Source: Gonapodya prolifera JEL478 (lineage: Eukaryota > Monoblepharomycota > Monoblepharidomycetes > Monoblepharidales > Gonapodyaceae). From it: a stretch of DNA of 64,000 bases. The stretch is taken from positions 31,824 through 95,823 of the forward strand of contig KQ965870.1 of NCBI GenBank assembly GCA_001574975.1. The letters are read 5' to 3'. Below, one piece after another: positions 56,807 through 64,000 of this stretch (positions are counted from its first letter, which is position 1; the number at the start of each line of letters is the position of its first letter). The notes beneath the pieces were generated by a model that saw only the letters and a list, made by a program, of their open reading frames with translations, was not told the DNA's origin and did no database searches. The position numbers were made by a program, and so were the translations under genes.

Positions 56807-59572
56807 TCAACCTTTGCGATCTTCAATGTCCCACTTTCTCCATTGCACGAGATCTTCTCGGATTGCTTCCACGACAATGTCGACAAAGTCCTCCACAGCA
56901 GCTCGTGCTTCGGCCCTTTTCCCTGGCGGTGCTGCATCTCCCCATCCCTCGACGTAGTACTTCAGTTTTGGCTCCGTTCCACTTGTGCGTAGTGTCACCC
57001 AGCCGGTAAAGCCACCGGGCGCCGTAAGGCCAAACGTTATCATCTGAGTAGACCTGGAGGTGGGGAGAGTAGGAAGGTGGTCGGGGGTGGCGGAATCGTA
57101 CGGTTCAGTCAAATCACGAATTCGAGTGACGGTGAGCGGGACGGAAGGTCGAGATGGTGCGACTATAACGGCGGGATATGAGGGATTACGCATCATCTGA
57201 ACGAATTTAATGTAATGTTTACCCGAGCAAAGGAGCGGCACAAACATTGATCTGCCTCACATACCTGTTCTCCAGTCTTCATCCAGTCTTCAACATGACC
57301 ACCAAATCTCATTCGGTCGCATATCTTGGTCATCTTTATAGGATCATGGCAAACAAAGTAGGACGTCTTCGACACGAAGTCCCCATACCTGATGCAATTT
57401 CAGTCATGATAACGCCTAATCACCAACTGTGCTACTCACTTTGCATATAGCCCGTCAAGATAGTCGCCAGCTCCCAATCCCTTGTTCTCAAGCTGTACTG
57501 CAAGCTCAGCAAATGTGGCAAGGGCGGAGACTCCATCCTAAGTCATTATAGAACTGAGAAATGCAAGCTGACGCACGACATCTCCCGTATCCACCTTATC
57601 TCTAACGAACCGCGATCCACACATAAATCCGATGGCTTCCTCATAAGCAAACACTACTTCACGACCTTCAGCTTCCAGTTCCACCACACGATTCCCGATC
57701 CACTTGAATCCCGTGAGTGTCTCGTGGTATTCCACTCCCTCCACTTGACAGAGTTGAGAGAGCAGGCGAGATGACACAGCAGTAGCTAGGAACGCGGGAA
57801 CTGCAATTTTTCGATCAATGACAAAGTTGCTTCTCGGTTTCTGATAAATCGAGTGTCGTAAGGCACACTTACCTTTTTTGCTAGACTTGGACTGTCGCCA
57901 TTTCTCGAGAGAGTAAGCTGCCAAAATACATCCTACGAAATCCGAATCAAATAATCGGGAAAAGAAGCTCTTCTGTGACTGAGGTAACGAACCAATCTGA
58001 TTCCCGCTGTACACCACCCAATCTCCCCCTCGCTTCTCGGCTACTGCCAATCGATCAGCATCGGGGTCATTGGCCACAATATACTTTCTGTCACCCGTGC
58101 TTCGGTCTGCGACCTCCATGGCCAACTTTAACGCTCCTTTACCCTCCTCTGGGTTCGGATACGCCACTGTTGGGAAGTCCGGATCGGGCGAGTTTTGAAG
58201 GGGAACCAAATATGGCATTGTTGAAGACACAGGAAAGTTGAAGACTCGAAGTGCGCGAAGAGCGTACGGGCTTCCGACCCCGTGCATAGGTGTGTAGGTA
58301 ATAGAAAGTGATTTGGGGGGTTCTGCATTAGCTTGGCTGAAGGATTTTGTGAGAGGTATGAGGCGTAAAAATGATTTAATGACGAAAATGTTGCGGAATC
58401 ACCTTTGCGTGCATAGTCCAGCCACCTCCTCAAAGTATGCTTCGGTAGCAGCCTCGTAAACATCCTCCACAAACCCATCCTTTCCACGGGAGAGCTCCAG
58501 CGCGACCCTTGATTCATCCCAAACAGTTGAAAATGGGACGGGACCAGTTTTCGTTTCCTTGTCTTCGGCTGTGGCCGATGGCAAGTGCCGCTCCCAAGGT
58601 ACGAGGTTCTCAAGAATATACTTTGAGACATGTGAGTCGACAGGTGCTACTATCTGACATGCGTTAGCCGCATATAACTTGTATCCATTATCGGCAGCAG
58701 GGTTGTGGGAGGCGGTGATCATGATACCTATTTTCGAGAGCTAGCGTAACCGGCGAGAACGGAAAGACCCGAAGGGTATCGGTGTAACGACAAAGGACGA
58801 CTCACCGGCAGACGCATTTTGCTTTTTGACAACAAATGGAACCATTGGCGTGTGTACGTAAGTTGGACTCTTCCCACTTCCGAACCACAAGACCCGAAAA
58901 CCTCTGAACAGGAAACAGGCCGCAGAGAGGCGCGCGAACCGAAAGCTTCCATGTCGGTGGTCGTGACCGATAACAACAGTAGGATTCGATAGCGTTTTAG
59001 GAAGACTGAGCAGGTAAGAAGCAAGACCTTGGCTGGCTTGTATCACAGTGAGGTCTAAGACGACGTCAAGATATCAATTGCCTTCGCGAGTGCCAAGCAT
59101 AACAGATGATCGTGATTACCGTTCATGCGCGAGTACCCAGGACCCATAGCAGCGCGCAGTCCTAGATTTTGTATTTGGTTGTTTGAGGATATGAATTAAT
59201 ATGACTTTCATGAATAACGTAGTTTTCCTCATTCGAACTGACCAGCAGTTCCAAATTGAAGCCTATTTCTGAGAAGAGACTCAAGAGACTTCGAGTCATT
59301 GGCGTCAACTAGCTTTTGAATGTACCCCCGGTTTGACGCATTCTGTGTTTATGGAAGCAGGTAGACGTAGAGATTTGGATGAGAGATGGCCACATTCAGA
59401 AGAGTAGCAATTGGAGCTTTTGGTCCCGATTGAAAGCATATTTGGTCATCACCCCATCAATCAGTTGTCTTGAGCCATCAGCCGGTCCCAGTAAAGCCAA
59501 GCGCAAGGAAATAATATCGACCTTATCCAGAGAGACGTACTCCAGCGCGATGGACACGATATCACGATCCAT
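56807..59572 (-). CDS. Phosphoglucomutase-2 / phosphopentomutase (PGM2 family)
   Basis: Cytosolic alpha-D-phosphohexomutase of the PGM2/Prm15 type, interconverting ribose-1- and ribose-5-phosphate and glucose phosphates. ATG 59572 gives [18 protein letters not shown] noncanonical-looking donor (GTCGAT) joins it in phase to [16 protein letters not shown] and RLQFGTAG, then [13 protein letters not shown]. Catalytic motifs are all present: the phosphoserine loop [16 protein letters not shown], the metal loop [14 protein letters not shown], the sugar loop [17 protein letters not shown], and the phosphate-binding [14 protein letters not shown] near the C-terminus. The stop is at 56807. About ten introns interrupt it. 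The size fits the family (about 600 residues). Its start lies only about 100 bases downstream of the Fanzor stop codon on the same strand. Confidence 0.93.
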
Positions 59573-59669
59573 CGGTAGTCGTACAAAAATTAAAGACTGA
59601 GGCCGTTACTCATGTAAGGCCCGGGCTATGAAGCACCCTTTGGAATGGATGCACCGACATTGCTGAAAG
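59573..59669 (-). other. Short spacer between Fanzor stop and PGM2 start; candidate guide-RNA region
   Basis: Ninety-seven bases. In TnpB and Fanzor loci the guide (omega/f) RNA overlaps the end of the nuclease gene and its 3' flank, so this spacer plus the last part of the nuclease exon is where such an RNA would lie. No secondary structure was established here; this is inference from family layout. Confidence 0.3.
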
Positions 59670-62600
59670 CTACGCGTCTTTCTTCTCCAACGCCCTCAGA
59701 GGCCCCGAGAAAGAGTGCCCCTCCGTTCCACCATTCGCGTCCACGAACCCGAACGGCCGCTGGCCACCAGTCACCATTGCGTAGATAGCGAGGTAAGCCA
59801 TGTTGGCGGACGCCGAAAAGTCTCGATTGATGGTCAGGGAGCAGCAAGTGCACTCTTCAGTGCAGTCGGTGAAATTAAATCTAAAACAGAGAGAACATAA
59901 CAAAAGAAACTTACTCTTTATCGCCCAGGCGGCTTTCCCCTCCTCGTCCCGGTAGCCAGAGAGTTTGCCGACCTTACAATGCCCACATCTCTGCGACGTG
60001 TGGAACTCTTTTATCAGAACGAGTAAGATGAGGCCAGGGGAACGGTGCTGAGTTCGCGTAGGATCTGGTTACGATGATGGCAGATCAAGACAAAGAGGTC
60101 GATTGCAGCAACAATCAAAATTAAAAATAGCACGGCCACCTACCTTACGTTTGGGTGAGGATGCAGATCCGCGAGAGCTAGTCCCGAATGTTGCATCTCC
60201 AAATGCAACAAAGGGGCGCGTCGCGGACCCACCTCGCTGGAACGGCTCAACACCGCTGGCCAAGTTGCCAGAAACGGAGACCAGGTTCGGAGCGAACAGC
60301 GATCGAGCCACCTTGCTCATCGCCGAGGCGGCCCGCCCATATGAGTGCATCCGAAGATGCCTAGCCAAAGACGTGTGAGCTTAAATGTGTAGAATCGCGG
60401 ACTAAGCAGATACGTACCGCTCCCGAGGGTGGCCGTAATGTACTGGAATGACAGAGGGATCAAATAAACACACGATGGTACATATTCAGAAAACTGAAAC
60501 AAACTTACATTTTAACATTTTCAAGTTGGCCAACACGGTGGCACTATATAGTTTGAGTCAAGTCGCCGGTGCGGGAGGTTGGGAAAAGATTGAAGAGGGA
60601 CTTGATGCTCTTCGGGCCAACGTTCTTGAGCTCGTGAGTCACAGGATCAATCACTCGTGCATTCTGGAGACCATCCCACGTCAGTATAAACCGCGATAGG
60701 AGCTTATCGAAACGTAACCACACTTACAGGGACAATACTCGACTTCACCCATTCACCCTTAGACTTTGTGCTTTCACATACCGTGCCTCATGCCTCCACT
60801 CGTCGTTGCCATATCGGCAAAATAGTTCAACTCGCTCTTGGCCAGGTACACAGCCCAGAGAGCCCCATACTCCGTCTTCGTTCTTGGGGTAAAACTCTTT
60901 CATGTAGTCCTTAAACAACGTCTCGAACTTTGCTTGATCAAGAGCGTCATCTGCTGACCCCTTTCCTGCCTTCCCCGTCGGTCGACTGGTGCTTTGACCT
61001 TTCGTCCCTACAGTGGCACTTTGGCTCACACTCCGCCCACAAGTTTTCGATTTCGCTCTCGGTTTCCGGCCACGGTCCACTGCTTTGTAGTCATCAGACG
61101 ATTCTGGTCGCATCGCTTCCTGACTTGATGCAAAGAACGGTTTCTTCCGGATTTCATTGTCCGGGACTGCGGGATTGGGGACCTTTCGGACAATGTTGAT
61201 GTCCTGAAGAACTCCCTTCACGTCGTATTTGCGTCGAAAATAGAAAAGTTCCCTTGTCCCATCTGCTTTGTAGTGGAAGAAACCCCAGTCGTGGCGATTA
61301 GGATCTATTGGAGGCTTGCCGCTGGACTTGTTTAGGAGGATATTCCGCTTAATGCAATCCAGTTCGTCCGTCGTTATGACGGCTTTCTCGCTGCCTTCTT
61401 GCTTGTTGTTGCTTCTGGCGGCGTTCCCGGTTCTTGCTCGTTCTCGATCAGCTGCTCAACACCTCGCCGGCTAGACTGGTGAACTGGCTCATCAACGGCA
61501 CCTTAATGTTGTCCGATTCGTCCTCACCCTCATTACCGGGAGAAGAGTTCGCCGATTCGGACTTGCCCCGCAAGATGCAGTTGCTAAGTTCCTCCGTCTC
61601 CCGCTGGAACTTAACAAACGCTGTCACTGTGCTTGTAAGGAGCGTGTCTTTGTTGAGCTTGGTCACTAATGAAAGGTTGACTTTGTAAATAGAGCACAGT
61701 GGGGCACCAAAGCAAGCTCTCACTTTTCGCGTCCTTCTTTGTCTCTCCATCATTGTCAGAGCTACTGTCCACGTCCATCCCAGCGTTTGGTGCTGGTCCT
61801 CCAGCATCAGCGGATGGAGCAGTTGCTGGCGCTCGATCACCTTGCGGAACATTGGGAAGCCAATGACGGAGTAGTACTGGTCGTAAGGGTTGCCATTGAT
61901 GCCAATGCGAGAGGACTTTGGATGGCGCCAAGAAGCAGATTCTTTCTTTGCAACCTGTAGAACGGCATTGTAAAGGGCCAGGTCTTCTTGATAGCGTTCC
62001 GTGCAAAACTGGATGATAAAGAAATACGAACAATCAAACCATGTCAAGCAAAGGGCCATACTGTCAACTGCACCTTCTGGTCTTCACCAGACGACTTTGC
62101 AAAACTTTCTTTACAAAAAAGTTGATTCGCCTCAGTCTAAATTATGGTTTGGGAGATTAAACCGGAAGACAAGCACAATCTCTGACAATGCCAACTCACT
62201 CTTGCTGCGGCTTTCAAGGCCTTTCAATTATCTTTTGATGCGGCAATAAACGCACTTGAACTCTCAAGTCTGTCAGTGTGAGCACGTGATGCTGAGAGCT
62301 TCCACCTCATCCAAGGTTCTATCGGTAGATCGGGCATTTCCTAAAAAGTTCCAAAATGTCCCAAATCACCAAACATTAAAACAACTTGCATTGAGGTCAA
62401 AGACTAGAAAATTACCTCCGTCACCACTTTGTCCTTTTTGATATCAGCAAACTTGAGGTCCTTTAATAAGTTGTCTCGTATATGCAAAACGATGGTTTTT
62501 ATGACCGCTACAAGGTTTTCGGCATCTTTCCAAGGCACTGAGCAATTGAAGGTGACAGGGTTGTGACATATGACGTCAAGAGATGTACTCACACTTTTGG

Positions 62601-63325
62601 TTGGATCCGGCCACCAAGTAGTCATACGAGATATCGTCTAGGGAGACCCTGGAGTCAAGAAGCCGTAAGAATTGATTTGCTGTGTTATACAACTGGGACT
62701 TTGGAACCCCAGCTTTCCTGGAGACTGGAGTTGAGAAGGGATTGTACCTGAAACAGCAAGTGGAAATGTTTAGCACTTTCTGCAACATGAAAAGAATGGG
62801 TTGCAACACAACACATACCTTCAGTAGTAATTGAAGTTGAAACATGTTATGCAAAACCATCCTCATTTCTCTTGCTATATCTAGTCCAAGCTAAAAAGTG
62901 TAAGGATGGGGGAAAACTGAGCCATCTGTTACTTCTTGGAGAAGTAATAACACAACCCACAGCATACAAAATAAGATTTGATGGAACAGGTTGAGTGTCT
63001 TCTGGAGGGATCAAAGGCCTAACATGTTCCCAGTAGGTCAAGATAAAGAAGTCAAATGTTTCTTGATAGCCAGGAGAATTTTTCCATTCTTGGGCCTCCA
63101 GTTCCTGATACCTGTCGTCAAAGACTATGACAAGAGCATGAATGATTTGATGTATCATCAAAAAACCACATGAAATCAGCTCACCAATCCTGATGAGCCA
63201 CTGAAAGGCTATTTCATTCAACACCAAGTAATCTGGCCTCTTTTTGTCTGTGCAACACAATAATACCACACCCAGGAGGATACCAACCTTGATGTAGACA
63301 TGATGAGTTGCTGAAACTGTCCCAT
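59670..63325 (-). CDS. Fanzor (eukaryotic TnpB-like) RuvC/zinc-finger nuclease
   Basis: Probable RNA-guided DNA nuclease of the TnpB/Fanzor family. The last exon (about 60045 to the stop at 59670) reads IKEFHTSQRCGHCK, a charged spacer, then CTCCSLTINRDFSASANMAY. This matches TnpB position by position: TSQ-C-x2-C, the second Cys pair (59841-59852), then C-x4-N-x-D-x2-A-S-x-N. The Asp at 59820-59822 is the RuvC-III residue. The preceding exon (about 60362-60150) has RHLRMHSYGRAASAMSKVAR (bridge-helix-like) and RPFVAFGDATF, the Fanzor RuvC-II-like strand. A candidate RuvC-I Asp is in NARVIDPVTHEL (about 60650). The last exon phases agree, with donor GTAAGG and acceptor CCAG. N-terminal exons (DNLLKDLKFADIKK, NPYDQYYSVIGFPMFRKV, WGFFHYKADGTRELFYFRRK) extend to about 63.3 kb; the start is unresolved and the exons above 62.6 kb may belong to another gene. 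Confidence 0.8.
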
Positions 63326-63467
63326 GGCTCACTTACCCCCCCTGTACAGAGATACCCCCATGTTTAAGAGAAGTACCCCCACCCCTTCTGGACCAAAATT
63401 CTTTGTGCAGTACCACAGGATTTTTTTTCCATTGAAAAGAAAAAGTAGATTACACTTTGCGTAAATT

Positions 63468-64000
63468 TTATTTCCTAGTTCTCAACTTTCTACCACTTCC
63501 CTCATCATCTGTGCCCTTCTTACGCTTGTTCCTAGCACCCAAAGACTTTGATCTTGGCACATTTGCAGCTGTTGCAGGCCTACCAGGACCCCTCCTGGGG
63601 TGGTGTGCTTGGTGTCCTTGAAAGTCCAAAAGTTTGTTAAAGACTTTGGTGAAACATTCAATGGTAACCCACTAGATTTCTCATCTTCATCAGAAGACTC
63701 AGAGTCTGCATGCTGAATATTCTTCTTGGCATGAACAGTAATGGCATCTTTAAAATTTTTGAATAGAACAGGTAAGCATAAAATAAATCATTAGGAGCAA
63801 AATACTACCTTCTGCTCCACTGTTATCGATATCATCTCCAGAGTCGTAAGCTCCAACTTCTTTAGCCTCTGTGAAGATGTAACGAGCAACTGTAAAATGA
63901 GATTAGAGAATGTGAAAGCAATAAAAAATAGATTCATACCATCTTTTGGAATCTTAGGAACTCCATCATGGTAATTGTCTCCAGCCTCTTCCTCTTCCCC
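63468..64000 (-). CDS. 3' part of an unidentified nuclear-type protein (runs off the right edge)
   Basis: The C-terminal exon reads VFNKLLDFQGHQAHH, then PRRGPGRPATAANVPRSKSL (AT-hook-like GRP core in basic context) and ARNKRKKGTDDEGSGRKL, ending RTRK with TAA at 63468-63470. Upstream, acidic segments (EAKEVGAYDSGDD, ESSDEDEKSSG) are separated by introns near 63680-63760, 63810 and 63890-63940. Not recognised; a chromatin-associated protein or a DNA transposase C-terminus are both possible. It lies in the same AT-richer tract as the Fanzor gene. Confidence 0.45.

Follow-up and report, generated by a model that had tools for sequence, protein, structure and literature searches.

The minus-strand gene near the right end of the window (64,000 nucleotides, G000:C140:31824-95823, ending with its contig in an assembly of 47.6 Mb and 207 contigs) raises the question of whether it still encodes a working Fanzor nuclease or only the remains of one. 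An earlier note on this DNA held that the gene looks intact and may be domesticated or a new Fanzor subgroup. In our preferred reading (probability about 0.85) the feature is the C-terminal half of a decaying, intron-bearing Fanzor1-type transposon gene, one of four dispersed broken loci. It is a known kind of gene. Below, C140 denotes the window copy; C12, C14 and C1 are the other loci of the same subfamily in the same genome.

Gene model and C-terminal domain

The C-terminal exons on the minus strand read LIKEFHTSQRCGHCKVGKLSGYRDEEGKAAWAIK, intron, CTCCSLTINRDFSASANMAYLAIYAMVTGGQRPFGF, and are preceded by the FGDATF exon (Table 1). The frame 60068-59670 (LIKEFHTSQRCGHC...CTCCSLTINRDFSASANM) is found as the earlier note gave it, and the signature described there and the GDATF exon ahead of it are present. 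The motifs of the tail follow each other as Glu (six residues before CxxC), TSxxC, second CxxC and NRD. The Gly of FGDATF is kept in 7 of 7 aligned C-termini.

Table 1. Features of the window copy (window positions)
Feature	Position	Strand	Basis
Hairpin-forming stretch past stop codon (GCAUCC - loop - GGGUGC)	59633..59652	-	
Last exon: second CxxC and NRD; RuvC-III Asp codon 59822-59820; stop codon 59672-59670	59670..59854	-	start predicted
Predicted 60-nt intron within zinc finger (GTAAGT ... GAAG)	59855..59914	-	boundaries inferred from paralogues C14, C1 and reading frame
Exon: alternative RuvC-II Glu (codon 60008-60006), TSQRC, first CxxC	59915..60047	-	
Predicted intron (GTAGGT ... CAG)	60048..60143	-	sequence
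FGDATF exon	60144..60360	-	exon start predicted
Damaged exon NARVIDPV...LFNLFPTSRTG	60509..60663	-	boundaries predicted
1-nt deletion relative to C12 (between 60752 and 60751), leading to TGA 60747-60745	60745..60752	-	alignment with C12
Exon VITTDELDCIK...DPNRHDWGFFHYKADGTRELFYFRRKYDVKG...YVKAQSLR, with DPN at 61305-61297	60753..61380	-	
Junction where C12 copy has extra 927 bp	61381..61384	-	
Upstream block common to C12 copy, 84-87% identity, no recognised domain	61385..62607	-	

The introns of the earlier note are retained here as predictions from the sequence and the paralogues. With the acceptor at 60048 a 4-nt shortfall relative to C1 is avoided and the last three exons read without in-frame stop; from the nearer CAG acceptor (60065) the frame meets stops. 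The remark that no in-frame stop was needed therefore applies to these three exons, but not upstream of 60363, where frameshifts and stops occur. A 34-nt intron ending in TTTTAG was also considered for the zinc finger and rejected for its wrong phase; the 60-nt intron ending in GAAG suits both frame and paralogues.

With this intron (59914-59855) removed, the window C-terminus matches Pfam PF07282 with 31.1 bits (E 2.6e-7), above the cut-off of 26.3 bits. An alternative splice retaining FNFTDCTEE gives 27.8 bits, and the unspliced read-through remains below the cut-off (21.3 bits, E 3.1e-4). The spliced score indicates more than a chance match, and the same motif order is found in two other loci. 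The motif [TS][TS]xx, a C4 zinc finger and RD form the Fanzor1 signature (PMC3627910), which appears in the window as TSQRCGHC...CTCC...NRD. According to PMC10711439, the RuvC-II Glu of Fanzors occupies an alternative position six residues ahead of the zinc finger, whereas in canonical TnpB it sits about 50 residues ahead of the finger; the window Glu is at the Fanzor position (E-FHTSQR-CGHC).

A profile of seven C-termini, all from this genome (window, C14, C1 and one each from four other clades), matches the PDB sequences of GtFz1 (E 8.8e-5), PpFz1 (1.3e-3) and SpuFz1 (1.9e-3). Cas12f, TnpB-like and Fanzor1 chains (Guillardia, Parasitella, Spizellomyces) together range from E 3.3e-5 to 1.9e-3, and other TnpB and Cas12 chains are matched as well. 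The four-sequence profile (A1) finds TnpB-like and Cas12f chains best (E 0.002-0.014) and GtFz1 at 0.018; TBL1X and other unrelated chains have comparable E-values. The window alone matches Cas12f best (E 8.5e-4), along with TnpB-like chains; Fanzor chains were not found among PDB sequences with this query up to E 10. Motifs and profile matches support membership of the TnpB/Fanzor family, as the earlier note proposed, and the Glu position supports a Fanzor-type protein rather than a canonical TnpB.

Dispersed relatives and missing segments

An intron-blind PF07282 search of the whole genome yields at least 20 rows (19 places, should the two neighbouring C3 rows belong together), the window copy not being among them. 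Its close relatives are C14 and C1, recovered by C-terminal search, and C12, recovered by DNA search; the copies of the subfamily are dispersed over the genome. C14 and C1 possess the motif order of the window, and the TSQRC segment is 70% identical between window and C1. The C12 copy lacks the C-terminus (its match stops at window 60208), and C1 does not extend upstream as far as the WED-like region. All three are damaged by stops, frame changes or truncations, and an intact subfamily member was not found in the searches of this genome, whose counts are lower bounds.

In a C-terminal tree of 20 rows, drawn from this genome alone, without external Fanzor1 sequences and with C3, C17 and C83 left out, the four IS607-type rows are separated from the remaining 16 (support 100/99). 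Window, C14 and C1 belong to the 16 and are mutually nearest (path distance 0.46), and no starred branch joins them. A new subgroup, as suggested in the earlier note, is possible as such a small clade, but not in any stronger sense.

Window and C12 align at the DNA level in three blocks of 84-87% identity, which are separated by 163 and 927 bp in C12 and by 3 and 4 bp in the window. The 163 bp are missing from the window at 61912-61914. The 927 bp consist of 113 bp, a 171-bp MITE-like fragment and 643 bp, the last of which encode a WED-like segment (FSTDGIGCSLVF) and a DPG site (VWGTDPGWQEIVVAT), with counterparts in C14 (FTTDGVGASVNF and VLRGADPGRRELSYSV, respectively). The name WED-like follows from the order of the segments and a TDG motif, which suggest this identity. 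A plain transposon insertion was rejected as the origin of the 927 bp, the MITE-like repeat covering 171 bp alone and the next 643 bp being gene-like. The 171-bp piece is an inverted match to a MITE-like repeat 1.5 kb away. This repeat of about 238 bp (L031:6360-6630, G000:C12) has 39 other copies at 92-95% identity among the matches listed; genome-wide, 40 of 394 candidates were scored.

In Fanzor1, a WED domain precedes RuvC-I. Searched against the whole genome, the WED-like segment matches two places, C12 and C14, and it gives no significant match in the window. With the DPG segments as queries, matches in the window are confined to the shared ITTDELDCIK...DPN piece and short stretches at chance level. 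The junction at 61381..61384 may, however, reflect an assembly error.

The coding frame, continuous in Fanzor1, is broken in the window copy. C12 reads on where the window, after its 1-nt deletion, has TGA 60747-60745; a frame change in the damaged exon leads to TAG 60546-60544 in window and C12 alike, the C1 counterpart of this exon (60509..60663) being a single frame; and TGA 62226-62224 of the window is CAA in C12. Because of the broken frame we class the window copy as a Fanzor1 remnant and not as a working member. The view that the gene looks intact has to be given up in light of the frameshifts and the WED-like and DPG stretch missing relative to C12.

The span 59670..63325 given in the earlier note is too wide. 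Of its long, unfamiliar N-terminal part, the block shared with C12 remains, without recognised domain; beyond it lie DNA without a match elsewhere in the genome and a repeat. For 62608-63315 the genome search found no second copy, and 63316-64000, reaching the contig end, is the end of a different, multi-copy element that matches 11 further places, nine at 92-99% identity. In Pfam searches, neither the upstream block nor 62850-63332 of the window matched a domain; the only matches, weak and below threshold, came from window 60748-61455 and one C12 piece.

Between window and C12, differences by codon position are 25/27/23 (of 195/196/194) in exon 61377-60782, 2/2/3 (of 27 each) in 60660-60580 and 6/6/12 (of 49/48/49) in 60359-60210. 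The pair thus displays little sign of constraint, the small exon 60359-60210 leaning the opposite way. C14 and C1 differ by 3/2/7, 3/2/7 and 5/1/7 in three exons (sum 11/5/21), which indicates that the subfamily was formerly under selection. CpG observed/expected is 0.04-0.14 in C12 and 0.64-1.02 in the window blocks, and at 113 of the 313 window-C12 differences a CpG of the window corresponds to TG or CA in C12; this depletion in C12 may mask codon bias.

RuvC-I and the competing readings

Scored with a RuvC-I matrix derived from nine sites in other clades, the DPG sites of C12 and C14 come first and second among 329 Asp sites (three forward frames, four loci). Third place goes to a window site lying within a predicted intron (CTIVCLFDPSVI) and fourth to its C12 counterpart, both probably by chance; an intron site at this rank implies a matrix of limited specificity. 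When all six frames of the whole window are scored (3079 Asp sites), 13 sites reach the level of one DPG site and 14 that of the other. The ranking provides moderate evidence for DPG as RuvC-I, an assignment made from motif and flanks, without alignment; hhalign left this region unaligned when C12/C14 were compared with clade B. The DPN sites rank 13 (window), 48 (C12) and 101 (C14). DPN is the RuvC-I motif in other Fanzor1-type copies of this genome (clades B and C), and in SpuFz1 the metal is coordinated by D383 and N385 (PMC10432273), so the window may retain a RuvC-I Asp. Its DPN at 61305-61297 could be this motif, although the matrix disfavours it; the window copy is probably without the RuvC-I Asp. 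Neither the missing WED-like segment nor the frameshifts hinge on this question.

The ancestor probably acted like the characterised Fanzor1 proteins SpuFz1, GtFz1 and PpFz1 (PMC3627910, PMC10432273, PMC11423790; see also PMC12477157). By analogy with this family, an omega-RNA derived from the gene's 3' end would have guided a WED/REC/RuvC protein to TAM-adjacent DNA, and the guided cut would have aided persistence of the transposon. The window copy most likely provides no working nuclease, because its frame is shifted and it lacks the WED-like segment and, probably, a RuvC-I Asp.

An intact, active Fanzor1 with misread exon structure, in which DPN is RuvC-I and extra introns remove the frameshifts, is unlikely. 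The DPN of the other copies and the SpuFz1 residues agree with it, and donor-like GTATGT (60781) and GTAAGT (60727 and 60508) lie close to the frameshifts, but the WED-like segment present in both paralogues reaching that far is missing, the 1-nt deletion is not found in C12, and the flanks of DPN score poorly. We see even less reason to expect a domesticated, nuclease-dead fragment retained by the host, for instance as an RNA-guided binder. Every motif residue is retained in the C-terminal exons, and the window region, unlike C12, is not CpG-depleted; against this, the main exon has no codon-position bias relative to C12, the WED-like segment is missing, stops and frameshifts occur, and the other three loci are broken as well. 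On these grounds the domestication proposed in the earlier note is not adopted. Nuclease-dead TnpB regulators of prokaryotes are a parallel to a shortened Fanzor that has lost WED and RuvC-I, retains zinc finger, alternative Glu and RuvC-III Asp, binds RNA from its own 3' end and acts in trans on copies of the element; that the window copy would be such a protein is equally improbable.

A Fanzor2/IS607-type TnpB is more doubtful still: such genes occur in this genome, one of them beside a serine recombinase, but the tree sets the IS607 rows apart from window, C14 and C1. Hardly credible is a zinc-ribbon match by chance, to which the unspliced score below the Pfam cut-off would conform, given the E-value after splicing and the paralogues with identical motif order.

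The decaying Fanzor1-type gene that we prefer resembles Fanzor1 in its TS-xx-C4 zinc finger-RD tail with Glu six residues before the first Cys pair, the conserved upstream Gly and several dispersed copies in a fungus; it differs in lacking the WED-like segment and likely the RuvC-I DPG, in its frameshifts and in the predicted intron inside the zinc finger. With Fanzor2/IS607 TnpB it shares the C-terminal signature and the genome, but not the tree branch, and the best such loci here have long open frames with DPGVR[ST]F, one beside the serine recombinase. The PF07282 zinc ribbon and RuvC-III Asp are common to prokaryotic TnpB/Cas12f, from whose canonical TnpB the window is separated by the Glu spacing of six instead of about 50 residues (PMC10711439). 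Reading at the level of motifs can mislead here, the Fanzor tail being well preserved and much of the remainder gone.

Introns, 3' end and genome context

Introns in Fanzor genes were reportedly described in a 2023 paper and are not claimed as new here. The word "intron" has 0 occurrences in the main texts of PMC10711439, PMC10432273 and PMC3627910. The zinc-finger intron of the window is in phase 1 (after AIK + A), that of clade C (e.g. C5, C7) in phase 2 (WGV + CG), about 2 nt apart in the alignment; perhaps both are one shared intron with slid edges.

The stretch past the stop codon has counterparts in C14 and C1 among the conserved bases of the three loci. Its folding is not markedly better than that of shuffles (z -1.23, 0.49, -1.93), and the hairpin occurs in the best fold of window and C1 and for C14 in the centroid alone. 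It is a candidate omega-RNA or element end. Inverted repeats at blastn level were not found in the searched stretches of the window gene, C14 and C1.

The modest value of the locus lies in its genome context, with several Fanzor1-type clades and IS607/Fanzor2-type genes in one probably flagellated fungus, two of the clades having a zinc-finger intron at nearly the same place. The assembly contains 63 matches to the fungal Zn-cluster domain, in agreement with the fungal origin stated earlier, and, on C3, a multi-exon radial-spoke gene (6 of 8 matching rows), which together point most likely to a flagellated fungus. Of two DNA patterns for the tail motif, one gave a single stretch (L061) and the other none. 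At L034:4789-7012 (G000:C37), a 732-aa TnpB/Fanzor2-type frame begins within the frame of an IS607-type serine recombinase (MerR E 1.5e-6, Resolvase E 1.7e-17), with a 280-aa Fanzor1-type frame alongside on the opposite strand. At L036:3440-6846 (G000:C114), a Fanzor1-type frame stays open for 468 aa, and a DDE_3 transposase ORF (E 1.4e-17) lies about 1 kb ahead of it; relatives of this Fanzor1-type frame were sought in viral contigs, where four stretches fit a pattern and none was confirmed. Fanzor1 genes have been described in mariner-like and other elements (PMC3627910).

Within window 62500-64000, CpG observed/expected starts at about 1.0 and drops to 0.1-0.3 as the contig end and its repeats are approached; the C12 copy is depleted to a similar degree. 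This looks like methylation- or RIP-type decay. The neighbouring gene at 57541-58398 is a phosphoglucomutase/phosphomannomutase coding stretch (E 1.1e-20).
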